Made by a program: the position numbers and the translations under genes. From the NCBI RefSeq assembly GCF_022549215.1, contig NZ_JAKZFC010000001.1, positions 372,001 to 436,000 of the forward strand: a stretch of DNA of 64,000 nucleotides, read 5' to 3'. Shown one piece after another: positions 8,270 to 63,262 of the stretch. Positions within the stretch are counted from its first letter, which is position 1. Each line of letters starts with the position of its first letter. The notes beneath the pieces were generated by a model, which saw nothing but the letters and a program-made list of their open reading frames with translations, made no database searches and was not told where the DNA came from. Origin of the DNA: Solibacillus palustris. Its GTDB lineage: Bacteria; Bacillota; Bacilli; Bacillales_A; Planococcaceae.

Positions 8270-8418
8270 GTGCGATTTTTCGGTGTTTATGTGTGAATTT
8301 ATGCAAAATGCGTGCGGTATTTCAAATTTATGTGCGATTTTCGAGCATTTGCGTGCGAATTTTGAAAAATACGTGCGAATAACCATTTAATACCGATTAT
8401 ATGCGGGGATATGTGCGG
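8270..8418 (+). repeat. Phased ~20.5-bp repeat array, locus 1
   Basis: GTGCG cores (CGCAC on the other strand), some imperfect, begin at 8270, 8291, 8312, 8332, 8353, 8373 and 8413. The steps are 21, 21, 20, 21, 20 and 40 bases, so the array keeps two helical turns with one degenerate unit skipped. Between cores are TTTATGTG or AATTTTGAAAA-like fillers. The right end reads GGGGATATGTGCGG, whose complement CCGCACATATCCCC recurs at the end of the array at 63255. Confidence 0.8.
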
Positions 8419-8424
8419 TTAGGG

Positions 8425-8493
8425 AAGCCCCCATGCACTATAAGAAAATCGAAATGAGAGGTCCTTCATTGCTATAGCTGTGTAGGGCTTTTT
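8425..8493 (+). terminator. Possible terminator of the acyl-CoA operon
   Basis: AAGCCC at 8425 can pair with GGGCTT at 8484, and TTTTTC follows. The loop is long and the stem short. From here to 8660 the 495-base gap is AT-rich with nothing else recognisable. Confidence 0.3.
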
Positions 8494-8720
8494 CTTATTT
8501 GCAAACACCGTTAATGGTTACATTAATAATATTCGCAAACAATTAGGGAAAATATCACGCAACAGGTTTTGTTGATTTCTTTGTAGAAATATCCAAGCAA
8601 GCAATATAATCGAATAGATAATATTGGATAAAATAACAATCCATTTTATGAAACTCTAGCAAAATAGTGTATAATAAGTAAGGTCAATTTATTAACTTTA
8701 TATTAAAGGAATGGAATGAA

Positions 8721-9218
8721 ATGAATTTAAAAGAATCTACTAGAAGATACATATTGTTAGGAGCTTTACTATTTATTGTAGCAGGGCTTATAGCAGCGAA
8801 TGTACTTGCGAATGGGCAAGATGCGCAATTTACAAAGGAAGATGCACTTTACCAGCAAGTCGCTCAGCTTTATAGTGAGAAAAATTATGAAGAAGCCTCG
8901 GTTCATATGAAAGAACTTTTAAAAGCACAGCCTAAATCTGAGGCAGTGAATTATTTAGGGGGTTTAGTAGCAGCAAATGTAGGGGACAACAAGCAAGCTG
9001 CTATTTTACTACAAAAAACATTAGATATTAATCCGCATAAAGTAGAAGATGCGATGTTCATGCTTCAGTTTGGGGAAGTCTTGGTGCTAGCTGAGCGAAA
9101 AGAAGATGCGAAAACGGTATTAATGCGCTGCCAAGAGTCAGCATGGGCTCCAGAGGATTTCCCAGAATATCAAAATCGTGTAGCTGAATTACTTGCACAG
9201 ATAGACACTATACAATAA
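8721..9218 (+). CDS. TPR protein heading the exopolysaccharide operon
   Basis: 165 residues. One N-terminal membrane helix (YILLGALLFIVAGLIAANVLA) is followed by tetratricopeptide-like helices at about residues 40-110 (LYSEKNYEEASVHMKELLKA, then AVNYLGGLVAANVGDNKQAA). It is probably a membrane-tethered adaptor facing outward or lying at the membrane surface. It starts the polysaccharide operon, 17 bases before the Wzy/ligase-like gene. A TATAAT at 8670-8675 is the only promoter-like element seen. The role in polymer assembly is inferred from position. Confidence 0.75.
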   Translation: MNLKESTRRYILLGALLFIVAGLIAANVLANGQDAQFTKEDALYQQVAQLYSEKNYEEASVHMKELLKAQPKSEAVNYLGGLVAANVGDNKQAAILLQKTLDINPHKVEDAMFMLQFGEVLVLAERKEDAKTVLMRCQESAWAPEDFPEYQNRVAELLAQIDTIQ

Positions 9219-9235
9219 GGAAGGTATATAGAATA

Positions 9236-10801
9236 ATGACTTCATTTTACGAAGAACTGAATAAAACAAGCAAGGTTGGCGACGACAAAGAAAACGCCCA
9301 ATCCCGTGCGAATGTAGACAAATGGATTTTCCGCCTATTGCTACTTCTAATTGGGGTAATGCCACTAATCGTACTTGCTAGTGTTGAGCAAGTAGTAAGC
9401 CCACTCATTTCCAATATTAGTGAACTCTCCTCTGGCATGAAGGGGGATTTATTTACACATTACAAAGCATTGTTTGTAATTGCTATTACGGTTATTACGG
9501 GCGCAATGCTATTCGTCAAAATCTTTTTTATGGATGGTCAAATTCGAAAAACGCCTTTTAACTATGTAATTGGATTATTCGCATTTGCAATCATCCTATC
9601 TACGTTATTTTCACCAAATATTACAGTTGCATTAAATGGTTTATACAATCATTCGGATGGTGCGATTAGCTGGTTATGTTATTTAGCGCTAATGTTCATC
9701 GCGATGAATATCGAATATCCGAAAAATGTTACTAAATATGTCATGTACACAATGATACCATTTGTTTTCATTAACTTATTTATAACTTCAATGAACTTTT
9801 ACGGAAAAGATTTACTTCAGTATGGATGGATGCAAAAGCTCGTTTCAATTGTGCTTCCAGAAGGTGCAAATCTTACGGCAGGCTCAACGTTAGTCGGAAC
9901 ATTAAATCAATGGAACTATATGAGCGGGATGTTTGCGATGATGACGGTCATGTATGTTGCTTGGGCTATTATTGAAAAATCATGGGTACATAGTATAGTC
10001 GGTGCGATTACAGCAGCTGCTGCTATTGCTGTTATGTTTATGTCGATTTCTACAAGTGGATTTTTAGCAGTATTAATGCTTTTACCTGTATTACTTGTAT
10101 TAATTTTTAAAGTGCAGCATAAAAAGAAAGCCGCTATTATGCTCGCTATTTTTATCGGGATTTCAGCGCCTATTTTCCATATCCTTGCCGAAAAGGATGA
10201 CCGCGTTTGGGGAGAATCGTTTGGTTTCTTTGTAGGGAACAACCCTTACTTAGATGAAGAGCCAGTCGCAGTAGACAACTCAAAAACGCCGCTAAATTGG
10301 ACAAATAAAGCATATGCCGCGGAGAAAGCATTAGAGCTACCAGTTTTACCGGAACGAGGAATGGCATTTGGCTCCGGTCGCGGTTATATTTGGAAAGAAA
10401 CTTGGGAATTAGTACAGGATCGACCACTAGTTGGTTACGGTAGTGATACCTTAATGTATAATTTCCCGCATTTCCAACTAGAAAGCCGAGGCGCGCTAAA
10501 TTGGGAAGAAATTGTAACGGATAAACCGCATAATGTGTATGTCGGTATTTTATATGGAATGGGTATATTAGGATTTATTGCGATCATCGTACTAGTAATC
10601 TTCCAAGTATTAAAATTGCTTCAACAATTATTTAATAAAAAAGGGAATTTAGCGGCGATTGTATTAGGGGTAGGTGTAACAGCTTATTTCATTCAAGCGA
10701 TGTTTAATGACTCTTTACCAGGTATTACAACCGTTGCCTTCGTATTATTTGGCATGATGATTTCGATGATTTCAAATTCTAAAAGGGAGCCAATGAATTA
10801 A
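9236..10801 (+). CDS. Wzy / O-antigen-ligase-like polytopic protein
   Basis: 521 residues with about ten membrane helices and a large extracytoplasmic loop (about residues 320-410). The layout matches the O-antigen ligase/polymerase superfamily (Wzy_C), enzymes that join lipid-linked repeat units outside the membrane. A conserved-looking arginine-rich patch (GSGRGYIWKETWELVQDRP, then GYGSDTLMYNFP) lies in the large loop, where Wzy_C proteins keep catalytic residues. The last bases overlap the next start (TAATG). In this operon it is the best candidate for the polymerase; a ligase or glycan-attaching enzyme is the alternative. Confidence 0.82.
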   Translation: MTSFYEELNKTSKVGDDKENAQSRANVDKWIFRLLLLLIGVMPLIVLASVEQVVSPLISNISELSSGMKGDLFTHYKALFVIAITVITGAMLFVKIFFMDGQIRKTPFNYVIGLFAFAIILSTLFSPNITVALNGLYNHSDGAISWLCYLALMFIAMNIEYPKNVTKYVMYTMIPFVFINLFITSMNFYGKDLLQYGWMQKLVSIVLPEGANLTAGSTLVGTLNQWNYMSGMFAMMTVMYVAWAIIEKSWVHSIVGAITAAAAIAVMFMSISTSGFLAVLMLLPVLLVLIFKVQHKKKAAIMLAIFIGISAPIFHILAEKDDRVWGESFGFFVGNNPYLDEEPVAVDNSKTPLNWTNKAYAAEKALELPVLPERGMAFGSGRGYIWKETWELVQDRPLVGYGSDTLMYNFPHFQLESRGALNWEEIVTDKPHNVYVGILYGMGILGFIAIIVLVIFQVLKLLQQLFNKKGNLAAIVLGVGVTAYFIQAMFNDSLPGITTVAFVLFGMMISMISNSKREPMN

Positions 10802-11718
10802 TGGAGGAAACGATTGAATTAAGAGAAATAATTAATATTATTTTAAGAGGGAAATGGCTTATTTCACTTATTACCATAATCGCCCTATTATTCGCTGGTA
10901 TTCTATCTTGGTTTGTAATTCCTGAAAAATATGAGTCGAAAGCAGTTATTCAAGTAATTGCAGATGCTCAAGATGCAGGGATTATTAATTCATATGTGAG
11001 CGCGGAATTTACACCCGTTATTTATACACAGCGTATTCAAAATGAAGCAGTAATGGATGCATTATTCGAACAAAATAATTTTGGACAATTTGACGTAAAA
11101 AACTTAGTTGTTTCGTCAGATGTTCAATCGAATTTAATTAATCTAAGCTATCTGTCAAAAAATCCTGCAGAGGCACAAAAGCATCTACAGCTATTAACGG
11201 AAGAAACAAAAAAACAAATGAATGAATCCGTACAAACGACGTTAGAGAATTTAGAGAAAACGTATTTAGCTGAATCTAAAAATTTAGCAGAAGAAGTAGC
11301 GGTACTAATGGAAAAGTACAATCGACTCATTATTTCTAATAATTTACCAGAAGTATTAATTTTACAAACGATTTCAACGGAACAATATGTATTAAATTTA
11401 AATGAAAATCAAACAGCGGCATTGGCTTCGATTAATGGTGCAATGCAAAATGAATTATCACAATTAAAGAGTGAAATCGATATAAAATCAGAACAATACC
11501 GTCAAGTGTTAGCCAATTATCAATCCGTAAAAACCGGTTTGGACAGCTTTAAGCCAGATCCATTTATCCGCGTGATTGTAGAGCCTACATTACCTAAAGA
11601 TCCTTCTGCACCAAACAAAGCAATCAATTTATTGGTTGCCCTTGTTTTAGGCGTAATGATTGGTATAGGGGTCGTATTTTTCCGCGAATATTGGAGAAAA
11701 TCAGCGATTGTAAAATAA
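10801..11718 (+). CDS. Wzz-like polysaccharide co-polymerase
   Basis: 305 residues. A membrane helix at about 20-42 (LISLITIIALLFAGILSWFV) and a second near the C-terminus (LLVALVLGVMIGIGVVFF) flank a mainly helical extracytoplasmic domain. This is the topology of chain-length regulators. It ends soon after the second helix, so no BY-kinase domain is fused, and no separate kinase or phosphatase gene follows, unlike most Gram-positive capsule operons. Overlap with the upstream stop implies translational coupling with the polymerase. Confidence 0.85.
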   Translation: MEETIELREIINIILRGKWLISLITIIALLFAGILSWFVIPEKYESKAVIQVIADAQDAGIINSYVSAEFTPVIYTQRIQNEAVMDALFEQNNFGQFDVKNLVVSSDVQSNLINLSYLSKNPAEAQKHLQLLTEETKKQMNESVQTTLENLEKTYLAESKNLAEEVAVLMEKYNRLIISNNLPEVLILQTISTEQYVLNLNENQTAALASINGAMQNELSQLKSEIDIKSEQYRQVLANYQSVKTGLDSFKPDPFIRVIVEPTLPKDPSAPNKAINLLVALVLGVMIGIGVVFFREYWRKSAIVK

Positions 11719-11743
11719 ATGTATTTGAAAGAGGTTGCTAGAA

Positions 11744-13558
11744 GTGGGTTATAAGCTGCGTTATTTTATATTTTTCATAGTAGACTCTTGTATTGTACTT
11801 TCTGCTATTTTCATTAGCTATTGGCTGCTTCATCCAACACTTAGTGTCTATTACGATAAAGTAATTGTATTAAGTGCGCTTACATTGTTAGTGAGTCATC
11901 ATATTGCAGCTTATATATTCCAACTTTACACACGAATGTGGAGTGTTGCAACTGTTCGAGAATTGCTAATCATTGTATACGCGGTAACTATTTCTGTTGT
12001 TGCGGCGAGTATTTTACAACAGATCATTAATTCCGATATTTATTTTCGTGTCATGACTGTTACGTGGATGCTACATATTATTATGATTGGTGGTTCACGT
12101 TTTATATTACGCTTATTAAATGATAGAGAATCGTTTAAACACGCGCCAAACAGTAAACAAATTTTGATTGTAGGTGCTGGACAAGCTGGAACAATGCTCG
12201 CTAAAAATTTGCAAAGCGCACAAAATCAAGAGTCTTATGCGGTAGGCTTTGTCGATGATGATGTCAATAAAACGCATTTGAAAGTCATGGGACTACCTGT
12301 TTGGGGTTCTACAAAAGATATTAAGCGTATTGTCAAAGCGAAAGGAATCGATGAAATTATTATTGCGGTTCCTTCACTTGGCAAGAAAGGTGTTCAGAGC
12401 ATCTATCAAGAGTGCTCGAAAACCGATGCAACGGTGAAGATTATGCCGAAAATTGAAGATGTTATGACAGGTAAAGTAACGGTTAATGATATGCGTGAAG
12501 TTGATATTAATGATTTACTTGGTCGTGATGAAGTAAAGCTGGATATGATTGCAATCTCCGAAAAATTAACGGATAAAGTTATATTGGTAACCGGTGCGGG
12601 AGGCTCCATTGGTTCGGAAATTTGCCGCCAAGTAATGAAGTTCCAACCGAGAAAATTAATTTTGCTAGGTCATGGAGAAAACTCGATTTATACCATTCAT
12701 ATGGAATTATTCGAGAAAATTGGTGGGGATATCGAGCTGATCCCTGTTATTGCGGATATTCAGGATAGAGAACGTATTTTTGAAATCGTGAAGCATTATC
12801 AACCAGATGTTATATATCATGCAGCAGCACATAAACATGTACCATTAATGGAATACAATCCACGTGAGGCGATGAAAAATAATATTTTTGGTACGAAAAA
12901 TGTTGCCGAAGCAGCACATGAATACGGTGTCGGCAATTTTGTGATGATTTCAACAGATAAGGCAGTCAACCCACCGAATGTGATGGGCGCAACAAAACGC
13001 GTTGCCGAAATGGTTGTCCAAAACTTAGCGAAAACAAGTAGCACCAAATTTGCAGCAGTACGATTTGGTAATGTTCTTGGCTCTAGGGGTTCTGTTATTC
13101 CACTATTTAAAAAGCAAATTGCTGCAGGTGGTCCAGTAACTGTCACGCATCCAGATATGACACGTTATTTTATGACCATTCCAGAAGCATCACGTCTTGT
13201 CTTACAGGCCGGTACTCTTGGTGGTAATGGTGAAATCTTTGTTCTTGATATGGGGGAGCCTGTAAAAATTGTAGATTTAGCGCGTAACCTGATTCAGTTA
13301 TCTGGCTTTATGGAAGATGAAATCAAAATTAAATTTACCGGTTTACGTCCGGGAGAAAAAATGTTCGAGGAGCTACTAAATGAAGAAGAAATTCAAGAAG
13401 AGCATATATTCCCTGGGATTCATATTGGACGAGCCAATGTACTTGAAACGAGTAGTCTTTACGAATTGCTTGAGTGTATAAAATACATGTCTGAAGAAGA
13501 GCTGAAAGCAACACTATTAGGGGTTGCTAATAATAAACTAGTCGAAATGAGTTTATAG
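11744..13558 (+). CDS. UDP-N-acetylglucosamine 4,6-dehydratase (CapD/WbpM type)
   Basis: About 604 residues. GTG 11744 is preferred over TTG 11735 because AGAGG ends 9 bases before the GTG and only 1 before the TTG. Four N-terminal membrane helices are followed by a CoA-binding-like fold (ILIVGAGQAGTMLAKNL) and the catalytic SDR domain (VILVTGAGGSIGSEICRQV). The active site shows STDKAVNPPNVMGATKR, with Met in place of the usual SDR Tyr ahead of Lys, as in FlaA1/PglF-type dehydratases. It makes a UDP-4-keto-6-deoxy-HexNAc. With the reductase at 20332 and the sugar transferase at 21195 it could supply QuiNAc or FucNAc. Confidence 0.92.
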   Translation: MGYKLRYFIFFIVDSCIVLSAIFISYWLLHPTLSVYYDKVIVLSALTLLVSHHIAAYIFQLYTRMWSVATVRELLIIVYAVTISVVAASILQQIINSDIYFRVMTVTWMLHIIMIGGSRFILRLLNDRESFKHAPNSKQILIVGAGQAGTMLAKNLQSAQNQESYAVGFVDDDVNKTHLKVMGLPVWGSTKDIKRIVKAKGIDEIIIAVPSLGKKGVQSIYQECSKTDATVKIMPKIEDVMTGKVTVNDMREVDINDLLGRDEVKLDMIAISEKLTDKVILVTGAGGSIGSEICRQVMKFQPRKLILLGHGENSIYTIHMELFEKIGGDIELIPVIADIQDRERIFEIVKHYQPDVIYHAAAHKHVPLMEYNPREAMKNNIFGTKNVAEAAHEYGVGNFVMISTDKAVNPPNVMGATKRVAEMVVQNLAKTSSTKFAAVRFGNVLGSRGSVIPLFKKQIAAGGPVTVTHPDMTRYFMTIPEASRLVLQAGTLGGNGEIFVLDMGEPVKIVDLARNLIQLSGFMEDEIKIKFTGLRPGEKMFEELLNEEEIQEEHIFPGIHIGRANVLETSSLYELLECIKYMSEEELKATLLGVANNKLVEMSL

Positions 13559-13633
13559 TACCAAATAACATGTATTTGGCATACATGTTGAAACGATGGA
13601 TTTTACTGTTCTGGTTATAGTAGGGGATAAAAA

Positions 13634-14791
13634 ATGAAAATACAAATATTTATTTATATAGTGGTCTATAGTTTAATATATTTCCTTTTGTCAACCAGTT
13701 TATATTTTATCAGTGTAAACAGTGGCTATAACGGATTGTCACTGCCGCTATTTGGCGGTGGGGATGATGGGCAATTTTACTATGAACAAGCAATGCATTT
13801 TGCAAATGGTGAGCCTTATATTTATACGTCTATGCATGTGTGGGTACTTGGCATAATTTTAGCTGTTTTTAACACGGAGAGTGTCATGATTTTACGGCTG
13901 TTTAACTTAATATCGAATCTATTAATCCTCATTTTTTCACTATTGATTTTAAAGAAGATAAGTAAGGAACAAACTTTCCATTTGGCTGCTACATTGCTCG
14001 TTCTATTATTAACGCTTTATCCAAGTTTATTATTAAATTCTACGCTTTCCATTTATCGAGATTCATGGATTTATGCGTTTTTCTTATGGGCCACATACTT
14101 ATTTATTAATCTATTTATTAGTAAAGGCAAATGGCCAAGAGTCATATATTTCGTTCTTTTAGTGTTTGTATTAATCATGCTTGGTGGCTATAGAAAGTAT
14201 GCATTATTAAGTTTTGTAATCGGTTCTATAGTTTACTTATTTATTAAATTGATTAGTAAGAAAAAAGTGAGCTTCTTTAAAATTGGTGGATTATTATTTA
14301 TAGGAATATCGGTGTTTTATCTATTGTTTCGCAACTTTAAATTCCCAGTAGTAGGGCTTTCATTTTCGGATGTACTGCAATATAGGCAGTCGAGTTTGGA
14401 AATAGGTGGAAGTCAGATGGGGATTTCCCTGGATCATTCGAATATCCTGTTATTTTATGCTAATTATCTTTATAGTGTTTTGAGTAATTTTATAGGACCG
14501 TTTCCTTGGCAAATTACGGGTGGCTCGACATTGCTATTGATGGTAACAGAGGGGATTTTATTTTTCTTTATTAGTATTTATTTAGTAAAAAAGATAAAAG
14601 TCTTTTCTAAAATCGAATTATTTTTATTCATCCAGGCGGTTGTATGGTTCTTATTAATTAGTATTTCAAACGACAATTTTGGGACGGGTTCTAGGCTAAG
14701 AATCGTTGGTTGGTTACCATTACTCATTATTTTTGTGAAATATTATTCAGAAGGAATATATAGAAGGAAGTTAAACAGTAAGCGGGTTTAG
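13634..14791 (+). CDS. Polytopic membrane protein, GT-C-like
   Basis: 385 residues with about ten membrane helices. The first extracytoplasmic loop carries GGGDDGQFYYEQAMHFANGE, an acidic pair placed where GT-C glycosyltransferases keep a catalytic Asp. Another loop reads STLSIYRDSWIYAFF. Family membership is not certain: GT-C transferase using a lipid-linked sugar, or a second Wzy-like protein, are both possible. It starts 75 bases after the dehydratase gene in an AT-rich section of the operon. Confidence 0.65.
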   Translation: MKIQIFIYIVVYSLIYFLLSTSLYFISVNSGYNGLSLPLFGGGDDGQFYYEQAMHFANGEPYIYTSMHVWVLGIILAVFNTESVMILRLFNLISNLLILIFSLLILKKISKEQTFHLAATLLVLLLTLYPSLLLNSTLSIYRDSWIYAFFLWATYLFINLFISKGKWPRVIYFVLLVFVLIMLGGYRKYALLSFVIGSIVYLFIKLISKKKVSFFKIGGLLFIGISVFYLLFRNFKFPVVGLSFSDVLQYRQSSLEIGGSQMGISLDHSNILLFYANYLYSVLSNFIGPFPWQITGGSTLLLMVTEGILFFFISIYLVKKIKVFSKIELFLFIQAVVWFLLISISNDNFGTGSRLRIVGWLPLLIIFVKYYSEGIYRRKLNSKRV

Positions 14792-14811
14792 TGCAGTAAG
14801 GAGTTTTTTAG

Positions 14812-15729
14812 ATGCCTAAAATTTCGGTAATTATCCCCATTTATAATAAAGGGAATCGATTAAAAACTACGATTCAATCGGTTTTGGATCAAAGCTATCA
14901 GGATTTCGAAATAATTTTAATCAATGATGGTTCAACTGATAATACTGATGAAATCATCCAATTTTATAAAGAGCAATATCCAACTAAAATTAACTGCTAT
15001 TCTCAAACGAACAAAGGGGTTTCGGCAACACGTAATTTTGGAATGACTGTATCAAAAGGGGACTATATTTCATTTTTAGATGCAGATGATTCTTATCATC
15101 GTGATTTTTTGCAAGAAACAATGGTCCAAGTGAATGAAAAGGGCAGCGATGTTATTTTAACAAAACATCATAAGCATTTTTTAAGTAGTGGTAAATTAAT
15201 TCAATCAAAAATGAAAATAAATAGCCGAGATATTCTAAAAGATTTTATTCTAGGGAAAATAGATGCCAATACTGATTCTTGGTTGATTAAGAAAACGTTA
15301 TTGAACGATAATCAAATCTGTTTTAACGAGGCACTAACTTTTGGAGAAGACATGCTATTTTTTATAGAAGTTTTAACAAATGCGCATAATCCGAGCTGTG
15401 TTTTAAAAGAGTTGACTACCTATAACATCGGCGTTGAGAATTCACTAAGTTCGAATTCAATTGATAAAATTTATAAGGATATTGAATGGATCACATTAGC
15501 AGTTCAATATATTTCGAAGCATTGCAACGATGAATCAAGGAAGTTAGCTTTGCTAAGTGCACTAGAATGTTATCGATTACCCGCTGCAATTGTCTATCGA
15601 TTGCATTTGAATAAAACGGTTGAAAATTATAGCGAACATAAGACAGCGCTTATGAAATATATTAAAAAGTTTCGATTTAATAATGGCCTTAGAAGTATCA
15701 AGCTGTTTAAAGCGATTCGGTCACTTTAG
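14812..15729 (+). CDS. GT2-family glycosyltransferase
   Basis: 305 residues. The GT-A fold is clear from KISVIIPIYNKGNRLKTTIQ, IILINDGSTDNTDEII and the DxD-bearing SFLDADDSYH at about residues 84-93. It is a cytoplasmic enzyme that should add one sugar from a nucleotide donor to the lipid-linked repeat unit. Donor and linkage cannot be told. A 138-base gap with a perfect 11-bp inverted repeat follows before the flippase gene. Confidence 0.88.
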   Translation: MPKISVIIPIYNKGNRLKTTIQSVLDQSYQDFEIILINDGSTDNTDEIIQFYKEQYPTKINCYSQTNKGVSATRNFGMTVSKGDYISFLDADDSYHRDFLQETMVQVNEKGSDVILTKHHKHFLSSGKLIQSKMKINSRDILKDFILGKIDANTDSWLIKKTLLNDNQICFNEALTFGEDMLFFIEVLTNAHNPSCVLKELTTYNIGVENSLSSNSIDKIYKDIEWITLAVQYISKHCNDESRKLALLSALECYRLPAAIVYRLHLNKTVENYSEHKTALMKYIKKFRFNNGLRSIKLFKAIRSL

Positions 15730-15785
15730 ATGTAAATGTAGATGAAAAGACAAGGGTCATCCCGAAAAATAACTGCACAATTAGT

Positions 15786-15809
15786 AGGATGAATGAAGTC
15801 ATTCATCCT
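15786..15809. promoter_or_regulatory. Perfect inverted repeat inside the polysaccharide operon
   Basis: AGGATGAATGA and TCATTCATCCT are 11-base arms around a two-base centre. No T-run follows on either strand, so it is not an obvious terminator. It may be an operator, an mRNA-stabilising hairpin or a partial attenuator between the GT2 and flippase genes. Confidence 0.55.
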
Positions 15810-15867
15810 TATTTGAATTATAAAATCGTATACACTAGGCATCAAATAAATAATAAGGAACTTAACA

Positions 15868-25298: not shown

Positions 25299-25410
25299 GT
25301 GCGCTTTTCGAAATATACGTGCGAATTTTGTGCAGATCTGTGCGAATACACGCAAGATACGTGCGGATTTCTGGGGTTTATGTGCGATTTTAGAGCATTT
25401 GCATGCGAAT
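25299..25410 (+). repeat. Phased ~20.5-bp repeat array, locus 2
   Basis: GTGCG cores begin at 25299, 25319, 25340, 25361 and 25382, with a degenerate ATGCG at 25403. The steps are 20, 21, 21, 21 and 21. The stretch GTTTATGTGCGATTTT followed by GAGCATTTGC closely matches the array at 8332-8353. Overlapping small frames on both strands here are produced by the repeat. Confidence 0.78.
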
Positions 25411-31042: not shown

Positions 31043-31252
31043 CTGACCAAAAAGTCATAACTTTTTGGTCAGTGCAAAGGGGTCTGCGCGAGAAGTAAAT
31101 ATTTCTCGCGTAGTGCTTTTGCGGTGGTCGAAATAAGAACGAATGCTAAAACCGTCATATCATGTGACAACGCATTCATAACCAGCATCGTGCTGGCCTC
31201 CATCCTCGGCGCAAAGGAGGTGTCCCAGAATCTTTTCTCGGACACCTCCTTT
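31043..31252 (+). repeat. Composite hairpin element, copy 1
   Basis: A perfect 13-bp hairpin (CTGACCAAAAAGT, loop CATA) is followed by a second hairpin at 31087-31110 (CGCGAGAA). Next come a core holding TTGCGGTGGTC and CATCCTCGGCGCAAAGG, and finally a perfect 13-bp hairpin (AAAGGAGGTGTCC) with T4. The same order of hairpin, core and hairpin occurs reversed at 59907-60060. It probably terminates the upstream gene as well. It fills most of the 331-base gap; a TATAAT at 31306 may serve the next gene. Confidence 0.7.
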
Positions 31253-52113: not shown

Positions 52114-52116
52114 TTT

Positions 52117-54508: not shown

Positions 54509-54538
54509 AATATAGTAGACACTCCACTATTTTATCAA
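54509..54538 (-). promoter_or_regulatory. secA2-slaP promoter
   Basis: On the minus strand TTGATA (54538-54533), 18 bases, then TATATT (54514-54509). ATAGT and ACTAT form a short dyad within the spacer. Confidence 0.55.
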
Positions 54539-54763
54539 ATTTTGAGCATAATGACTACTAGACAATAGGTGATTCATAGGGTAATCTCCATTTGTTGGGT
54601 ATTATTTGGATTTTTTTGAAACGATTGCATAGTAAATAAAGCTATATTTTATAATTTGTCCGTGATATAATTAGCTTGAATAAAAATGTATATTTCTTAT
54701 GAAACTTCAACTTACACGAAATCGTTGTAGTAGTTGAGACTACAAATATTAAGGAGGAGAGAC

Positions 54764-55819: not shown

Positions 55820-55828
55820 AAAGATCGA

Positions 55829-55867
55829 AACAAGTAACTAGTTTGCGCTAGTTGCTTGTTTTTTTGT
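55829..55867 (+). terminator. tagO terminator
   Basis: AACAAG(T)AACTAG pairs with CTAGTT(G)CTTGTT around TTTGCG, then T8. Confidence 0.9.
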
Positions 55868-55903
55868 TGTTTTACGCGTTTGGTGTCTTCATGTCTTCGA
55901 TAT

Positions 55904-55950
55904 TTGCGATGTTTATCGGTTTATTAGCGAAATATCGAGGGTATTTGCGG
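55904..55950 (+). repeat. Phased ~20.5-bp repeat, short locus 3
   Basis: Three degenerate GCGA/GCGG cores (TTGCG, TAGCG, TTGCG) begin at 55904, 55925 and 55945, 21 and 20 bases apart, with GTTTAT and GAGGG-like fillers. It matches the longer arrays in spacing and flank composition but not in the fifth base of the core. Confidence 0.5.
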
Positions 55951-55977
55951 CTCCACCGCGTCCACTAATAAACTTTA

Positions 55978-56020
55978 CAAAAAACCCCGAAGCTCATATT
56001 ACTAAATAAGCTTCGGGGTT
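55978..56020 (-). terminator. Terminator of the LCP gene
   Basis: AACCCCGAAGCT and AGCTTCGGGGTT form a perfect 12-bp stem. On the minus strand T6 follows. Confidence 0.9.
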
Positions 56021-56032
56021 AAAAATTATAGT

Positions 56033-57076
56033 TTATTGTGTTAGTGAATCTGAATCGTCTTCTGTATAAGCGGAGTCAGATTGTGTGCCGGTACCTGAAT
56101 AGTTTGTTGATTCAGGGTTTAAACCTAAATGGCTTTGTAGGATTTGGCTGATTTCTTCTACGTTTTCATCGTCTAACTTGTAATAGTAAGTGCCTGTAGA
56201 CATATCATCATAGCCTTTTAATGTTAATGTGTCGATACGTGGCATACCAGCTGTTAAATAGCTGAAGAACGAACGCATTTCATCGAAGGTCATGTCTGTT
56301 TTCATATTTGAACCAACAGCAGATAGGATATCATCGTATTTTGAGATAGATGTGAAAGATGCTGATTTTTTAGCAATGGCTTTAATAATTTCTTGTTGGC
56401 GTTTTCCACGCTCGATGTCACTATCTTGCTTACGAGTACGTGCCAATGCTAATGCTTCGCGGCCATCTAATGTTTGAAGGCCTGCTTCTAAGTCGACTGT
56501 CTTTTTGTCGAACTCATCCATTTCAAGCATATCGTATGGTACTTCGACTTCGATACCACCTAAAGCATCGACAATATCGATAAATGCATTGAAGTTCATG
56601 CGTACATAGTAGTCGATTGGAATATCAAATAGTTCTTCCACCGTTTCGATTGAAGCAAGTGTTCCACCAAAAGCATGGGCATGAGTGATTTTATCTCGAT
56701 AGCCAACATGTGGTATATAAACATAAGAATCACGTGGAATACTTAATAGTTTTACAGTTTTTGTTTTGTTGTTTAATGTTGCTAATAATAGGGCGTCTGA
56801 ACGAGAGTTTTCTGCACCTTGGTCGCGCTTTTCGCTATCATCGACACCTAAAATTAAAATAGAGACATTGTCTTGCTTTGGCTCGGCTTTTACTTCTGAT
56901 TGTTTACGATTTTCAAGTTCCTCGTAGGCACCATCAGCTGCGTGTTTCGCTTGCTTTGTTAAATAAACGCCATATGCTGTGGCACAAATTGTTAGCGAAA
57001 ACGCAACGAGAATAGCTACTTTTAAAAATAACTTGAATTTCGAAGAGCCGCTCTTTTTGTTTTGCCTGTTTCTCAT
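56033..57076 (-). CDS. LCP-family wall glycopolymer ligase
   Basis: 347 residues. A short basic N-terminus and one membrane helix (about 17-40) place the catalytic domain outside. The LytR-CpsA-Psr domain shows VSILILGVDDSEK, SRSDALLLATL, LLSIPRDSYVYIP, GYRDKITHAHAFGG and LALARTRKQDSDIERGKRQQ with the usual Arg/Asp set. LCP proteins attach undecaprenyl-linked glycopolymers to peptidoglycan. It occupies the position of B. subtilis tagV (yvhJ), between tagO and yvyE, but inverted relative to tagO as there. The Ser/Thr-rich tail is non-conserved. Confidence 0.92.
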   Translation of the reverse strand: MRNRQNKKSGSSKFKLFLKVAILVAFSLTICATAYGVYLTKQAKHAADGAYEELENRKQSEVKAEPKQDNVSILILGVDDSEKRDQGAENSRSDALLLATLNNKTKTVKLLSIPRDSYVYIPHVGYRDKITHAHAFGGTLASIETVEELFDIPIDYYVRMNFNAFIDIVDALGGIEVEVPYDMLEMDEFDKKTVDLEAGLQTLDGREALALARTRKQDSDIERGKRQQEIIKAIAKKSASFTSISKYDDILSAVGSNMKTDMTFDEMRSFFSYLTAGMPRIDTLTLKGYDDMSTGTYYYKLDDENVEEISQILQSHLGLNPESTNYSGTGTQSDSAYTEDDSDSLTQ

Positions 57077-57254
57077 AAAGATTCTCCTCTTAAATTACGA
57101 ATAGGTTGCTGTATACATAGGGTATTTTGAGCATAAATAATAGTAAGGGTAAAGGGTGTTACTATAAAAATTAATAGTTTCAAATCTTATTTATTATACT
57201 ACTATCCACTTATGCAGTAAAGTTTTCGACAAAAAAGAATGACATAAAGACCAA

Positions 57255-57887
57255 TTATTTTAAAAATTCGATAAATAGTGATTCCTCGTTAGTGATAACA
57301 GCCTGTCCATTTGTTAATTCAGTAATCCACTCCATAAATGTTGCTTCATCTTCTTTTAACACGTGCACAAAAATTTCTACATTGTCTGCGTAGCCGATAT
57401 CGCGAAGTGTGTAGTCGGAATTACGAATTTCATTTTCCAATTTACCTAGCCAAACATAGTCAATTGCAATTTTCATGACATAGTGTAATTTGCGCTCGAC
57501 AACTTGTGCTGCCGCAATACCTTCTGTTGTGGCATTGCCATAAGCACGAATTAAACCACCGCCGCCGAGTTTAATCCCCCCGAAATAACGGGTAACGACT
57601 ACAACTGTGTCTTTTAGTCCTTGCTTTTTTAAAACTTCTAACATAGGGACGCCAGCTGTTCCACTCGGTTCCCCATCATCGTTTGCTTTTTGAATTTGGT
57701 CATGCTCGCCGATTAAATAGCAGGAGCAATTGTGCGTAGCGCTAGCATGCATTTTTTTTATTTTTTCGATGAACAGTAGGGCTTCTTGTTCGGTTTCGAC
57801 ACGTTCAACGTATGTTAGAAACCTAGATTTTGAAATTATAATTTCAGATTCGCCATAACCTTTGACAGTAAAATAGTTATTTCTCAT
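57255..57887 (-). CDS. yvyE: YigZ/IMPACT family protein
   Basis: 210 residues, normal for YigZ. The N-terminal IMPACT domain shows SRFLTYVERVETEQEALLFI, HNCSCYLIG, NDDGEPSGTAGVPML and TRYFGGIKLGGGGLIRAYG. A ferredoxin-like C-terminal domain follows. Exact function is unknown; homologues are linked to translation or nucleotide binding. It lies just upstream of degS, as yvyE does in B. subtilis, with its start facing away from degS. Confidence 0.9.
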   Translation of the reverse strand: MRNNYFTVKGYGESEIIISKSRFLTYVERVETEQEALLFIEKIKKMHASATHNCSCYLIGEHDQIQKANDDGEPSGTAGVPMLEVLKKQGLKDTVVVVTRYFGGIKLGGGGLIRAYGNATTEGIAAAQVVERKLHYVMKIAIDYVWLGKLENEIRNSDYTLRDIGYADNVEIFVHVLKEDEATFMEWITELTNGQAVITNEESLFIEFLK

Positions 57888-57964
57888 TAAAAATTCTCCT
57901 TATAATTACATTAAATTACTTTTTTTGTAGTTACAATATATCTTAAAAAATGATTTAATAATGC

Positions 57965-57970
57965 TATAAT
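57965..57970 (+). promoter_or_regulatory. degS promoter, extended -10
   Basis: TGCTATAAT (57962-57970) is an extended -10 box 60 bases before the degS ATG. No clear -35. Confidence 0.5.
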
Positions 57971-58029
57971 AGTAGTGGAACAAATAGATAGCAGTAGTTA
58001 TTATTTTGGTCGAGTAAGGTGGGGATAGT

Positions 58030-59193
58030 ATGTTTCAAGATGATCAGATAGATATAGCCTCGCTTGATATGATTTTTAATCGAATGTTAGAAACTATTAC
58101 AAATTCTAAGGACGATATATTTATTATAAGCGAACAGAGCCGAAGAAGCTTTGAAGAAATGCAACAAGAGCTCGAAATAGTTCGTCAAGAGATTAAAATT
58201 ATGATTGATGAAACCGATAGTTCAGAGAAACTACTGCAATTATCAAAGCATCGATTAGTTATTGTTAGTAAAAGCTTTAACGATCATTCGGAAGAACAGA
58301 TTCGTGTAGCTTATGAAAATACAAATAATTTACAACTTAAAGTGTCGTTATGCAAGGAAAAAGAGAAACAATTACGTGACAAACGAGATGATTTAGAAAG
58401 ACGACTACGTGCACTTTATGATACGATTGAAAGAGCAGATCACATTGTCAATCAGGTAAATGTCGTTATTAGCTTTTTGACAACTGATTTAAAAAATGTG
58501 GGTGCTGCACTCGAGCAAGCTAAAATCAAGCAAGACTTTGGTATTCGTATTATAAAAGCTCAGGAAGAAGAGCGTAAACGATTGTCGCGTGAAATCCACG
58601 ATGGGCCAGCTCAAATGATGGCTAACGTATTAATGCGATCTAATTTAATTGATCGGATTTTCCGTGAAAAGGGCGCCGACAAAGCACTACAAGAAATTCA
58701 AGATTTAAAAATAAACGTCCGCAACGCTCTGTCAGAAGTCCGTCGAATAATTTACGATTTACGCCCAATGGCACTTGATGATTTAGGCATAACTCCAACA
58801 TTAAAAAAATATTTATCAACCGTTATGGAATATAACCCAGGCGTTGATATACAATTTATGTCCTACAATAATGAACGCCGCATTTCGTCGGATTATGAGG
58901 TAGCGATTTTCCGTTTAGTGCAAGAATGTGTCAATAATGCAATAAAACATGGCAAATCTACATTAATACATGTAAAAATCGAGTGGCTACGTGACGAAAT
59001 AAATGTTGTAGTAAAAGATAATGGTAAAGGCTTTGATACGGAAAACGTTCGAGAAGGCTCATTTGGTATTATAGGCATGAAAGAAAGAATTGATTTACTA
59101 AGAGGTAACATGAATATTAACAGCGTTGTAGGTAAAGGCACGACTGTTTTAATAAAAATTCCTTTACCTATCGAAGAGGAAGAAACAATATAA
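58030..59193 (+). CDS. degS: Sensor histidine kinase DegS
   Basis: 387 residues, matching B. subtilis DegS in length. Entirely cytoplasmic: a long coiled-coil signalling domain (about 35-175), the HisKA_3 box with His190 in SREIHDGPAQMMANVLMRS, and the HATPase domain with VQECVNNAIKHGKS, DNGKGFD and GIIGMKERIDLLRG. It phosphorylates DegU. Ser80 in LVIVSKSF lines up with the regulated serine of B. subtilis DegS. ATG 58030 follows GGTGGGG. Confidence 0.96.
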   Translation: MFQDDQIDIASLDMIFNRMLETITNSKDDIFIISEQSRRSFEEMQQELEIVRQEIKIMIDETDSSEKLLQLSKHRLVIVSKSFNDHSEEQIRVAYENTNNLQLKVSLCKEKEKQLRDKRDDLERRLRALYDTIERADHIVNQVNVVISFLTTDLKNVGAALEQAKIKQDFGIRIIKAQEEERKRLSREIHDGPAQMMANVLMRSNLIDRIFREKGADKALQEIQDLKINVRNALSEVRRIIYDLRPMALDDLGITPTLKKYLSTVMEYNPGVDIQFMSYNNERRISSDYEVAIFRLVQECVNNAIKHGKSTLIHVKIEWLRDEINVVVKDNGKGFDTENVREGSFGIIGMKERIDLLRGNMNINSVVGKGTTVLIKIPLPIEEEETI

Positions 59194-59214
59194 GTAGACT
59201 TAGGGGGTATTACC

Positions 59215-59889
59215 ATGACAAAAATTATTATTATTGATGACCACCAATTATTCCGTGAAGGCGTTAAACGTATTTTAGATTTTGAAGATACGTTTGAAGT
59301 TGTCGCTGAGGGCGATGACGGTACAGATGTAGTGAGTCTATACGAAAGAAACCAGCCAGATGTTGTGTTAATGGACATTAACATGCCGGGGAAAAACGGT
59401 GTAGAAGCAACAGCAGACTTAATCGCGGAATATCCAGATGCAAAAGTAATGGTGTTATCAATTCACGATGACGAATCTTACGTTACAATTGCATTAAAAT
59501 CAGGTGCACTAGGTTATATGCTAAAAGAAATGGATGCAGACGAAATCGTAGAAGCGATCAAAGTTGTATCAAACGGTGGCTCTTACCTACATCCGAAAGT
59601 AACGAAAAACCTAGTAGCAGAATTCCGTCGTCTATCTGAGCATGAAAACAAAGGGAATTTCCACCAAACAGAAATTCGCCGCCCATTCCACTTATTAACG
59701 AAGCGTGAATGCGAAGTGCTACAGTTATTAACAGATGGTCAATCAAACCGTACAATCGGCGAAACATTATACATCTCAGAAAAAACAGTAAAAAACCATG
59801 TTTCAAGCATTTTACAAAAAATGAACGTAAACGACCGTACTCAAGCAGTAGTAACTGCCATCAAAAACGGGTGGGTAGAAGTTCGATAA
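59215..59889 (+). CDS. degU: Response regulator DegU
   Basis: 224 residues. The receiver domain has the phospho-acceptor Asp54 in [14 protein letters not shown], and the LuxR-type HTH shows [20 protein letters not shown] and [17 protein letters not shown]. DegU controls exoenzymes, exopolysaccharide, motility and competence in B. subtilis. It is a natural candidate for regulating the surface enzymes in this window. ATG follows AGGGGGTATT; it lies 21 bases from degS. Confidence 0.97.
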
Positions 59890-59906
59890 TTGAATTACTC
59901 ACGAAT

Positions 59907-60060
59907 AAAGGGCTTGTCCGGAAAATGATTTCTGGACAAGCCCTTTGCGCCGAGGATGATGAGAATTTAAACTGACCACCGCAGAAGTACCGCTTAGTGG
60001 ATAATTAACACATGTGGAGGACTGACCTAAAAGTAATCACTTTTAGAACAGTCCTTTTTT
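59907..60060 (-). repeat. Composite hairpin element, copy 2
   Basis: In the plus direction: hairpin AAAGGGCTTGTCC/GGACAAGCCCTTT (59907-59946, also the degU terminator), core TGCGCCGAGGATG...GACCACCGCA, then hairpin AGGACTG..CTAAAAGT/ACTTTTAG..CAGTCCT with T6 (60018-60060). Read on the minus strand it has the same order as the element at 31043. The rest of the 379-base gap, to 60240, holds a TTGACA at 60199 with AT-rich sequence after it, a weak promoter candidate. Confidence 0.7.
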
Positions 60061-60268
60061 CTTTTCAAAAAATGTGCTACATAAATAAGTTTTATTTTGC
60101 CACGCTATTACGTACGTATAATTCACTAGAAATCGTCTCTATTTTACATGTATGAAACATCTGTGAACTTCTGGCGTCTTATTGTGTGGTAAGTATGTTT
60201 TGACAATCCGAGATATCGAATTTTTAATATTAGTGTGCTAAAATGTTGTGCGGGAGGTTTGTAAATAT

Positions 60269-60784
60269 ATGAAAAAATGGTTAATGGCTGTCATGGCAAT
60301 GTTCCTGTTGACGGCTTGCGGCGATGAACAAGACGCATCACCAGAACAATTACAAAAAAAGATTGAAGATGGAACGGTAGGCTTTGAGGTTATGGGAGAT
60401 TCGATTCAAGAAGCCGCAAATATTCCAGCAGATGAAAAAGAAAAGATAATTTATGCGTTTAACGAATACATCAAAGCCTTTAATGACAAAGATTTAGAAA
60501 GTTATAAAAATATTATTTCCAAAAATGCACAGGGCTTTAATTATGATGAGGATGTAAAGGCGGTTGCGGACGTATTTCAGCAATATGACGTCAATCGTAC
60601 TGCTGAAGATATAACAATTGTGAAATATAGCAAAGAAGATGCACAAGTATTTTCGAATTTAACGACAAATACTAAAGAACTTGAAACTGGAGCAGAACTA
60701 TCGGGTACAGGTCGACAAGTAACGGTATTTGTAAAAGAAGATAGCTGGAAAGTTTCGAGTATTTATTATATTGGAAATGAATGA
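60269..60784 (+). CDS. Small lipoprotein
   Basis: 171 residues. ATG 60269 follows GGGAGGT by 12 bases; a GTG-like upstream extension would spoil the signal. The signal ends in the lipobox LLTAC, so Cys at about residue 18 is lipidated and the protein is anchored outside. The rest is a 130-residue mixed alpha/beta domain, possibly of the NTF2/SnoaL type (FNEYIKAFNDKDLESYKNII, VTVFVKEDSWKVSSIYYI). Ligand and role unknown. Confidence 0.8.
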   Translation: MKKWLMAVMAMFLLTACGDEQDASPEQLQKKIEDGTVGFEVMGDSIQEAANIPADEKEKIIYAFNEYIKAFNDKDLESYKNIISKNAQGFNYDEDVKAVADVFQQYDVNRTAEDITIVKYSKEDAQVFSNLTTNTKELETGAELSGTGRQVTVFVKEDSWKVSSIYYIGNE

Positions 60785-60803
60785 TTGATGAGCAATTTCT
60801 AAA

Positions 60804-60838
60804 ACATCCTAATCGAGTTATCGGTGGGATGTTTTTTT
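60804..60838 (+). terminator. Lipoprotein gene terminator
   Basis: ACATCC and GGATGT enclose a TCGA/TCGG-containing stem, then T7. Confidence 0.85.
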
Positions 60839-60950
60839 GCGATAATTTCCCCATGGAATTAAGCTTTGCTCGATATGACAAATGTCATTTTTTCATTCAC
60901 ATTTACATACAGATACGGTAATATAGTTGACATAGGAGAGTGGGGAAGCG

Positions 60951-61796
60951 ATGAAAACAGCAATTGTTACAGATAGTACAGCCTATTTGACGCTTGAAGA
61001 ACGTCAGCGTCTTAATGTTTATATGATTCCTTTAAGCGTTAATATAGAAGGAACAATTTATGATGAAGAAATCGATATCACAGCTTCTGAATTTTATGAT
61101 CGTGTACGTGGAGCTAAGGAATTCCCTAAAACAACACAGCCACCGATTGGTAAATTTGTAGAGCTTTATGAAACATTAGCAAAAGAGTATGATGAAATTG
61201 TAACAATCCATTTATCAAGTGGCATTAGTGGTACTTTCCAAGGTGCGGTACAAGCAAGTGATATGGTAGAAGATGTAAATGTTTATGCATTTGACTCGGA
61301 AGTTGCGGCTTATTTACAAGGCTTTTTTGTAATAGAAGCGGCGAGAAAAGCAGCGGAGGGCGCTTCGGGTGAAGAAATTATTGCGCATTTAGAACTTTTA
61401 CGTCCAACACGCGAGGAATATATTATTGTAGATGACTTGCAGCATTTACAGCGTGGAGGTCGTTTATCCGCAGCGGCGGCATTAATTGGTGGGCTACTAC
61501 AAGTAAAACCGGTATTAACCTTCCAAAACAAAGTCATCGTTCCATTTGAAAAAATTCGTACGCGTAAAAAAGCCTTACGCCGTGTAGAAGATCAACTTGC
61601 TGTAGCAGTTGAAAAGCACGGTGCACTGCGAGCTACGGTTATTCATGGAAACTGCGAAGAAGAAGCGGTTGAATTGATGAGTAGCTTAGCTGAAAAATAT
61701 CCAACTGTAGAGTTTACATTAAGCTACTTCGGCCCAGTTATCGGTACGCACTTAGGTGAAGGCGCGATGGCAATTGGCTGGATCAAAAAAATATAG
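60951..61796 (+). CDS. DegV-family fatty-acid-binding protein
   Basis: 281 residues. DegV family motifs: IVTDSTAYLT, KTTQPPIGKF, SSGISGTFQGA, YAFDSEVAA, DDLQHLQRGGRLSAAAALIG and FGPVIGTHLGEGAMAIGW. These proteins bind a fatty acid and present it to the fatty acid kinase FakA (FakB role). It is the counterpart of yviA next to degU in B. subtilis. The kinase gene is not in this window. Confidence 0.93.
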   Translation: MKTAIVTDSTAYLTLEERQRLNVYMIPLSVNIEGTIYDEEIDITASEFYDRVRGAKEFPKTTQPPIGKFVELYETLAKEYDEIVTIHLSSGISGTFQGAVQASDMVEDVNVYAFDSEVAAYLQGFFVIEAARKAAEGASGEEIIAHLELLRPTREEYIIVDDLQHLQRGGRLSAAAALIGGLLQVKPVLTFQNKVIVPFEKIRTRKKALRRVEDQLAVAVEKHGALRATVIHGNCEEEAVELMSSLAEKYPTVEFTLSYFGPVIGTHLGEGAMAIGWIKKI

Positions 61797-61806
61797 CACT
61801 AGCACA

Positions 61807-61842
61807 ACAGTCACTACGAAAATTTTGTAGCGGCTGTTTTTT
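61807..61842 (+). terminator. DegV gene terminator
   Basis: ACAGTCACTAC pairs with GTAGCGGCTGT around GAAAATTTT, followed by T6. Confidence 0.85.
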
Positions 61843-61901
61843 GGTTTTAGTTACGTAGTGCTTGCGTTTTTATTGTGAGAATTAGGAGGAGACTGTGGAC
61901 T

Positions 61902-62035
61902 CGAGCGTATATTACGAAATTCGAGCATAATACTTCAATTTCCGAGCATAAATTCTGAAACCCGCGCATAAACTCAGGGATTTCGAGCATAAATTTCAAA
62001 ACCCGAGCATATCCCCCGAAAGTCCACCCGAGCAT
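61902..62035 (+). repeat. Phased ~20.5-bp repeat array, locus 4 (CGAGC variant)
   Basis: CGAGC cores (one CGCGC, one CGAGCG) begin at 61902, 61922, 61943, 61963, 61984, 62004 and 62029, giving steps of 20, 21, 20, 21, 20 and 25. Cores are followed by ATAA, as in CGCACATAA of the other arrays. The penultimate unit reads CGAGCATATCCCCC, matching CGCACATATCCCC at 63255. It fills much of the 360-base gap between the DegV and NERD genes. Confidence 0.8.
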
Positions 62036-62156
62036 TGGCATACATCAAAGGCAATAATGCACATTTCGCCCCTTTTTAATAGGTAAAAAGAAATTTCCGC
62101 GCAAAGGATTTCACTTTAAAAATTTTTATTTTATGCTATATGTAGAGGTGATGTAC

Positions 62157-63098
62157 ATGCAAAAATCCGAGCACTACGTATTTATGGACGCACTTGTTCG
62201 TAGAATTCACGAGGATGATGAGGAAGCATTGCTATTTCAAGAAGAATTTTATCGTTTACAAGCTGGACTAGCAGGTGAAATGAAGTTAAAAACGACACTC
62301 GCAGACTATTTTTTTAAATCGGATTATGAGATTTTATACAATTTTGAATGTATCAATCTACGTGGCTTTACACATCAAATCGATGCGCTACTCATTACCC
62401 CGCATTTTATAATCATTTTTGAGGTCAAACAAATCTCGGGTAGCCTATTCTATAAACCTGCTGTTCAAGAGTTTTATCGTGTTACCGATAATGGTATCGA
62501 AGAAAATTTCGCCAATCCATTCGATCAAGTGTATCGCCATCAATTGTTTATTGAGCAGTTTTTGCAGCAATCTGCACTCAAGTTACCCGTGCTGCATATA
62601 GTTGTTATCGCAAACTATCGTGCAAAACTCGATAATGGTTTCGAATCGATGCCTATTATCCACTTGAGCAGCCTACCTAAATTTCTCGAATCCTTATATG
62701 AGCACTATCCGAGCACCACTGTCGTCCCCCGTCAAATTAGTGAGCTTTTTAAAAGTATTCACCAGCGTCTTCCAGCTCGCCGTCAAATTGAAGCAAGTCG
62801 TTTGAAGACAGGTGTATTTTGTCATCATTGTAATGTGATTGGTCCGATGCTTTTTTACCGTGGTTTTTGGCATTGCGAGCATTGTAAAACGAAATCTACA
62901 GATGGGATCATCGATGCGTTACAGCATTATCGTATTTTAATTGGTCCTCATATTACGAATCACGCGTTTCGAAACTTCTTAGGTATTAAAAGCAGATATG
63001 CAGCTATTCGATTGCTTTCTAAATTAAATGTGGAAGCAGTTGGACAAGGGAAAAGTCGCTATTATGTCATTCCAGAGGATTTGCTTTATGGGGATTAA
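62157..63098 (+). CDS. NERD-domain protein with zinc ribbon
   Basis: 313 residues. ATG 62157 is taken because AGAGGTG lies 6 bases upstream; an ATG at 62133 is possible. A NERD (nuclease-related) domain at about 35-150 shows DYEILYNFECINLRGFTHQI, DALLITPHFIIIFEVKQISG and FANPFDQVYRH. This has the D...E-x-K core of restriction-like nucleases. Near residues 225-250 CHHC and CEHC form a zinc ribbon, and a winged-helix-like tail follows. It sits between two phased arrays and upstream of comFA. DNA processing is possible but untested. Confidence 0.85.
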   Translation: MQKSEHYVFMDALVRRIHEDDEEALLFQEEFYRLQAGLAGEMKLKTTLADYFFKSDYEILYNFECINLRGFTHQIDALLITPHFIIIFEVKQISGSLFYKPAVQEFYRVTDNGIEENFANPFDQVYRHQLFIEQFLQQSALKLPVLHIVVIANYRAKLDNGFESMPIIHLSSLPKFLESLYEHYPSTTVVPRQISELFKSIHQRLPARRQIEASRLKTGVFCHHCNVIGPMLFYRGFWHCEHCKTKSTDGIIDALQHYRILIGPHITNHAFRNFLGIKSRYAAIRLLSKLNVEAVGQGKSRYYVIPEDLLYGD

Positions 63099-63110
63099 GG
63101 GATGGTAAAC

Positions 63111-63262
63111 CGCACGCAAATTGAGAAAATCGCACATAAACAGTCGGAAATCGCACGCAAATTGAGAAAATCGCACATAAACAGTCGGAAATCGCACGCA
63201 AATTCAAAAAACCGCACATAAACACCTATAATCCGCACGTATTCATCCGAAAATCGCACATA
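63111..63262 (+). repeat. Phased ~20.5-bp repeat array, locus 5 (CGCAC type)
   Basis: CGCAC cores begin at 63111, 63131, 63152, 63172, 63193, 63213, 63234 and 63255, with steps of 20, 21, 20, 21, 20, 21 and 21. Units alternate CGCACGCAAATT and CGCACATAAAC. Bases 63111-63151 and 63152-63192 are an exact 41-bp duplication. The array ends CGCACATATCCCC, just before the comFA ribosome binding site. This is the best-preserved copy of the family. Confidence 0.88.

Follow-up and report, generated by a model that had tools for sequence, protein, structure and literature searches.

Among described bacterial repeats, the closest to those considered here are the repetitive extragenic palindromic (REP) sequences and REP doublets forming hairpins (REPINs), together with REP-associated tyrosine transposases (RAYTs, TnpA-REP). 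According to the passages of PMC3116915 and PMC2817692 that deal with them, the protein gene lies near its own repeat, copies of the repeat are dispersed outside genes, and groups of repeats are tied to specific proteins. The present study deals with a 64,000-nt stretch of the 4.0-Mb Solibacillus palustris genome G000 (the window below), which carries phased arrays, where the unit is a short core recurring at steps of 19–21 bp, and a gene for a NERD-domain protein lying between two of them. Sequence comparisons suggest that such arrays are quite probably binding platforms of the NERD-domain protein family, each protein putatively binding its own phased array; the core depends on the protein clade, and each core tested is also dispersed, mostly where its gene is present. 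These repeats and nuclease-like genes in Bacilli point to an unrecognised protein–DNA partnership. The pair shares the above traits with REPIN/RAYT and resembles it in population behaviour, but fails two defining features: REP/REPIN units are palindromic, whereas the arrays consist of non-palindromic, direct, helically phased cores (CGCAC, TTCTAATA, GGCTAGTT and others), and RAYT is a Y1/HUH tyrosine transposase, whereas the protein here is a NERD-domain one. The adjacency of repeat and cognate gene, typical of REP/RAYT, is present here as linkage, and an action of the protein on the repeat is putative.

The window protein belongs to the NERD family (Pfam PF08378), well above the cut-off. The relevant part of PMC9040797 states that the role of NERD in bacteria lacked experimental study before SmdA, and mentions no array partner; a figure legend in a CRISPR survey of 2023 (PMC10910872) names NERD as one of the putative auxiliary genes, and no link between that legend's listing and phased arrays could be made. 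No earlier report of such arrays, or of a NERD–array pairing, was found among the matches listed in the openly licensed literature searched. Noc/NBS, SlmA/SBS and ParB/parS have tens of dispersed binding sites per protein, which are single palindromes conserved between species; the present repeats are alike in their many dispersed sites and differ in forming multi-site arrays with fast-changing cores. Plasmid iterons are direct repeats of about 20–22 bp, two helical turns apart; the arrays match them in spacing and differ in occupying many chromosomal loci and in having a different protein. CRISPR arrays have repeats of about 23–50 bp and longer unique spacers, and the cores of 5–9 bp and spacers of 12–16 bp rule out a CRISPR array here.

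The first-pass annotation, made from the sequence, had proposed phased arrays at five intergenic loci. Its coordinates are right, each locus lies between open reading frames (ORFs) of at least 90 aa, and four of the five arrays are strong, that at 55904 being weak:

8270..8417, minus strand: phased array with the CGCAC core; GTGCG on the plus strand, six exact cores
25299..25407, minus strand: phased array with the CGCAC core; five exact cores and one CGCAT; aligned with the same-species genome G101
55904..55963, minus strand: weak, probably decayed array with a CGCAAATA-like core; none at the orthologous place in G101
61902..62033, plus strand: phased array preceding the NERD gene; CGAGC core, the final copy out of step; CGCAC here in G101
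62133..63098, plus strand: NERD-domain gene; 321 aa from the ATG at 62133; a start at 62157 after AGAGGTG also fits
63111..63259, plus strand: phased array immediately following the NERD stop codon; eight CGCAC cores; whole-unit length change relative to G101

At the first array, GTGCG starts at 8270, 8312, 8332, 8353, 8373 and 8413 (steps 42, 20, 21, 20 and 40), the steps of 42 and 40 implying two units without an exact core; at the second, it starts at 25299, 25319, 25340, 25361 and 25382 (steps 20, 21, 21 and 21). CGAGC starts at 61902, 61922, 61943, 61984 and 62004 (steps 20, 21, 41 and 20) and then, out of step, at 62029, and the eight CGCAC starts from 63111 to 63255 are separated by 20, 21, 20, 21, 20, 21 and 21 bp. 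The 55904 locus, with GCG at 55906, 55927 and 55947 (steps 21 and 20), is probably a decayed member of the family, since its other-strand units resemble CGCAAATA and since it has the stretch CGCAAATACCCTCGA in common with a CGCAAATA-core array elsewhere on the contig (about C1:1353245-1353313). The end unit said to be common to arrays is present in the sequence as CGCACATATCCCC / CGAGCATATCCCC. The proposed mean spacing of about 20.5 bp is right for the CGCAC type; other types have steps of 20, 21 or fixed mixtures.

The annotation had staked the arrays on non-random spacing, which the data bear out. At four loci of the window, an identical 5-mer recurs at 20/21-bp steps in a chain of at least four, compared with a mean of 0.005 and a maximum of 1 in 200 first-order Markov shuffles. 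Scanning 856 kb of the same contig gave six loci at step 20/21 and 0 or 1 at other steps from 12 to 40, except for four loci at 12/13 and two at 21/22. In the whole genome, there are 43 CGCAC triples (gaps of 15–16 bp) versus 0 for the reversed pattern, and seven CGAGC triples, for which the reversed control is uninformative because the pattern reads identically backwards.

A cognate DNA-binding protein had also been proposed, and the product of the gene at 62133-63098 is a strong candidate for it; the gene itself, the clade-dependent core and the fast turnover had escaped the annotation. The NERD domain occupies aa 45-159 (64.4 bits against the PF08378 cut-off of 22.1), and all 24 aligned family proteins match NERD at E up to 1. 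Residues D84, E97 and K99 are present in at least 90% of the rows of this 24-row alignment, and the four cysteines of a zinc ribbon (C230, C233, C248 and C251) are invariant in it; D84, E97 and K99 are residues of catalytic type, a nuclease activity of the protein being putative. The AlphaFold model of the protein (mean pLDDT 84; six sequences) shows a helical C-terminal end with two short strands, and the segment at about aa 258-318 was read as winged-helix-like. The top Foldseek matches in the PDB are mostly nucleases and weak (E 0.0009 and worse, query TM-score of at most 0.28); they include the R2 retrotransposon protein, BspD6I, Bax1 and Can2, which we take to be PD-(D/E)XK-type nucleases. 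Sequence searches revealed no relative of solved structure at E 0.001 (two zinc-ribbon matches at 0.2 and 0.28), and one single-protein scan revealed no viral relative. Weak transposase matches of NERD-family proteins (Pfam) cover the zinc ribbons only. Membership of the window protein in BREX PglW or MADS6 was rejected, the scores lying below the curated cut-offs: the PglW match reaches 12.9 bits in PADLOC, which gives no curated cut-off, and 10.7 against 990 in NCBIfam, and the MADS6 match 21.7 against 460.

The linkage of such genes to arrays extends far beyond the window. Two genomes of the genus have NERD proteins identical to those of Solibacillus faecavium and S. merdavium, which places the genus as Solibacillus. 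Among homologous loci fetched by protein similarity, with chains counted within 1.5 kb of the gene, 25 of 30 in the genus have chains of at least four units and 28 have at least three. In a wider family set the corresponding counts are 28/36 and 35/36; this set, scored at 20/21-type steps only, comprises 30 of the matches from 13 other genomes of the family and six named loci, five of which repeat G004 and G006. A protein search across the class, in 348 genomes chosen without regard to arrays, matched 53 of them and added 21 loci not met before (L264 was excluded because it repeats L126); 18 of these loci have four or more units in a chain, including 7/10 outside the home family. Very long arrays in the family set are a 43-unit chain at L184 (G031; first step 20 bp) and a 28-unit chain at L181 (G051; first step 21 bp), both beside the NERD gene. 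Same-length, non-overlapping background windows have at least four units in 5/217 cases in G000, 12/101 in G001, 0/35 in G009 and 0/30 in G010. Chains of three are common in background (6/35 in G009 and 6/30 in G010), so it is the four-unit counts that carry the linkage argument. No other step tested reached five units in the genus set, or in the class-wide set with steps sharing 20 or 21 bp left out. Control loci around DegV-family homologues show at least four units in 8/30 cases; of these eight, two contain the arrays of the NERD gene itself, and six lie in the orthologous gap that follows degV and carry the core matching the NERD gene of the respective genome. G009 and G010 gave no match to the family profile, apart from one weak single-protein match in G009, and no chain reaching four units in the 140 kb (G009) and 120 kb (G010) examined.

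The core follows the clade of the protein. Twelve cores, written in gene orientation, were compared in 37 loci (L123, L134, L135 and L247-L249 were left out), and 36 loci carry paired units, chiefly of their own clade's core and on the gene strand, save one antisense pair (L116); L245 has no paired units, and stray pairs of another core occur in L117, L128 and L201. Array position is mostly downstream of the gene, on both sides of it in the CGCAC clade and mainly upstream in the TGACTA clade. On a protein tree built without L110 and L122 (35 rows, 30 of them different), the 11 core labels, one of which is 'none' (L245), need 10 changes, which is the minimum, compared with a mean of 22.6 after shuffling; five labels, counting 'none', are represented by one row each. 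L224 groups with L245 next to the TGAGGAT rows, which costs TGACGA a second change. The cores of sister clades resemble one another (CGCAC/CGCTCAT, TGACTA/GACTATT and TGACGA/TGAGGAT), and the helix around residues 286-296 is similar within clades and differs between them.

Dispersed copies were compared with the presence of the clade's gene in 16 genomes of the genus. CGCAC triples are present in 3/3 genomes with the matching gene (43 in G000, 27 in G101 with a control of 1, and 33 in G013) and in 0/13 without it; GGCTAGTT pairs number 40 in G002, the only genome with that clade, and 0 in the 15 others; GTTCTACT pairs occur in 6/6 genomes with the gene (G001, G004, G005, G007, G008 and G012) and in 1/10 without; and TTCTAATA pairs occur in all nine genomes with the matching clade, the gene of G008 being split in two pieces. 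One-sided Fisher values, computed by hand and ignoring ancestry, are about 0.06 for GGCTAGTT, 0.0009 for GTTCTACT, 0.002 for CGCAC and 0.02 for TTCTAATA. Over 101 genomes, G000 included, CGCAC triples were found in 19: two of the genus (G000 and G013), 14 of other genera of the family and three of the class, with one match each. Since the reversed control reaches five matches, one or two matches, as in G046, G051 and the three class-level genomes, do not rise above it; clearly higher counts belong to G024 (411), G058 (144), G048 (33), G039 (27) and G056 (26). An unbiased scan of 400 kb of G001 found TTCTAATA- or TTCTACTT-type 5-mers at 10/13 loci, and the other three (AATAT, AATAA and ATAAA) fall inside TTCTAAT arrays.

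The geometry of the arrays is conserved in one clade especially. All seven TTCTAATA arrays in the 400 kb of G001, one per 57 kb, have nine sites, four to eight of them with exact cores, at a spacing of 20 or 21, 20, 19, 21, 21, 21, 21 and 21 bp; nine gene loci, one of them from G001 itself and two repeating G004 and G006, show the series as well, and the steps at the corresponding gene loci of G000 and G101 are 21 bp throughout. Identity between the G001 arrays is 0.92 in cores and, in spacers, 0.43 at the same index versus 0.35 at different indices, so that some spacer likeness is left. No single fixed series was found in the CGCAC and TTCTACTT types. By a crude ORF call, 25 of 28 arrays lie wholly outside ORFs and three overlap a called ORF; only one lies between divergent genes, compared with 129/653 background gaps. 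This one (G000:C1:1378838-1379047) has eleven units at alternating 21/20-bp steps and is nearly a 41-bp tandem repeat. Relative to co-directional neighbours, seven arrays are antisense and three sense in G000, and six and four in G001, which is too few for a bias.

The arrays also change quickly. Flanks are mostly 90–99% identical between G000 and G101, with 86% over the NERD gene, 73% beside C1:1282459 and no match in G101 for the C1:145251 flank; in the seven arrays compared, the changes are gains or losses of whole units, or absence or replacement of the array, with those at 55904 and C1:1328175 absent from the orthologous place. Changed sites in the four alignable arrays number 5/144 in cores and 30/338 in spacers. 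The G101 NERD gene (L110, G101:C1:658888-659841) is interrupted in frame by a stop near codon 245 (320 codons translated), and its protein is 86% identical to that of the window, compared with 99% for the neighbouring DegV protein. The gap between degV and comFA holds arrays in six genomes with a TTCTACTT-clade gene, and remnants, judged by eye, in two without it (G003 and G006).

If the arrays are indeed platforms of NERD-domain proteins, the C-terminal zinc ribbon and winged helix would read the core, and one protein or dimer would sit on every two helical turns, which would bring neighbours onto one DNA face and allow cooperative assembly; the PD-(D/E)XK-like NERD domain would then act on, or be held by, that complex. 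The gene and its own dispersed repeat would evolve like RAYT with REPIN, as independent pairs in each genome, with gain and loss and with weakened arrays where the gene is missing. The odds lean slightly towards a new Bacilli system of orthogonal NERD proteins that form fixed-geometry complexes on their own dispersed arrays (in one clade, nine sites at 20/21-20-19-21-21-21-21-21 bp), with spacing and core under selection and with recognition helix and core co-diverging. As for purpose, a self-maintaining element, in which the array is the assembly and control site of a nuclease-like protein, can be suggested tentatively, at somewhat less than even odds.

Several observations weigh against the pairing. 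Because the twelve cores were picked from the very loci scored and read along the gene strand, the clade test speaks for consistency within clades only, and the winged helix is only mildly enriched in clade-diagnostic columns (3/64 versus 2/281 elsewhere). The genome counts treat related genomes as independent, and 14 of the 16 genomes searched for the wider family set were picked beforehand for CGCAC matches. Reversed-pattern controls are nonzero in 7/101 genomes in the CGCAC-triple search (up to 5, in G026 and G051), as well as in G009 for TTCTAATA and in G101 for CGCAC. Gene loci without a clear array exist (L123, L134, L275 and L284 with at most two units, and L170 with none), and so do arrays without the gene: three units in G009, one GTTCTACT pair in G003, which lacks that clade's gene, and TTCTAATA pairs in three of the seven genomes where no matching gene was found (105 in G012, 13 in G013 and 1 in G014), for which recent loss, an assembly gap or a flaw in the pairing are candidates. 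G101 keeps its 27 CGCAC triples although its CGCAC-clade gene is interrupted by the stop. Linkage and co-divergence could, moreover, stem from a third partner.

A selfish repeat comparable to REPIN, in which the arrays would be non-autonomous mobile DNA spread by the NERD protein or an unrelated transposase and without host function, is a serious possibility, though rather less than an even chance; it overlaps with the preferred explanation, which leaves the purpose undecided. Several CGCAC-type arrays of G000 are embedded in a dispersed element of about 300 bp whose copies share their flanks, G101 lacks some arrays at orthologous positions, and a unit order common to dispersed arrays was noticed by eye. 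Copies of the element include:

L098 8924-9126: copy of the ~300-bp element
L097 7571-7838: copy of the ~300-bp element
L099 10210-10509: copy of the ~300-bp element
G000:C1:1406215-1406481: copy of the ~300-bp element

Some copies hold a single unit or another core. The element ends GGCTCATCACC and GGTGATGAGCC, taken from different copies, look inverted only across copies, a repeat search within two copies tested found no inverted ends, and neither a clean empty site nor a target duplication was found. In G001, the spacers are near the composition baseline while the cores and the spacing series are kept, which looks like selection and unlike recent copying. A chromosome organiser, with arrays as nucleoid sites like those of Noc or SlmA and NERD as a bridging protein, would agree with the density of nine-site arrays in G001, with the location of most of the 28 arrays outside ORFs and with their scarcity between divergent genes; it is nevertheless unlikely, given that G009 and G010 have neither the gene nor long arrays in the regions examined, that a genome has several independent pairs, and that arrays differ between two strains of one species.

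Equally doubtful is that the arrays serve nuclease control or defence, holding or titrating an active nuclease that would be released against foreign or damaged DNA. The nearly invariant D84, E97 and K99, the mostly nuclease, weak Foldseek matches, the sub-threshold NERD matches to PglW and MADS6 and the NERD domain of Mokosh type I and Nhi-like defence systems (listed in a review table, PMC10952713) are consistent with it, but the defence-protein matches are below every curated cut-off. An ordinary operator, in which the array is an autoregulatory site of the NERD gene and the dispersed copies are its regulon, is improbable: the arrays flank the gene, and upstream ones exist in two clades, yet in the loci scored the array of the other clades is confined to the downstream side, and dispersed arrays are rare between divergent genes. 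That no system exists, and that the repeats are chance, coding heptad repeats, CRISPR or structured RNA, can be practically dismissed. Strict 21-bp steps can leave an array open in frame (G024), and 3/28 arrays overlap a called ORF; against this stand the window shuffles, reversed controls of zero or nearly so within the genus, step mixtures of 19/20/21 that disrupt the frame, the 12–16-bp spacers, the lack of any match at the window's arrays in an Rfam covariance-model search, and the occurrence of arrays on either strand relative to neighbouring genes.

If the pairing of NERD-domain proteins with phased arrays is true, a large family known mainly by a domain name gains a DNA target, and unexplained bacterial repeats gain a partner. 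The many independent pairs with different cores would offer a natural table for decoding the DNA choice of the winged helix and zinc ribbon, and would let one ask why helical phasing of many sites is selected.

In the window, the NERD gene is situated between a DegV-family gene (Pfam DegV) and a helicase gene (Pfam ResIII, DEAD), presumably comFA. Elsewhere in it, a Bacillaceae-1 RNA (Rfam RF01690) at 31130-31196 is the sole Rfam match at the gathering score.

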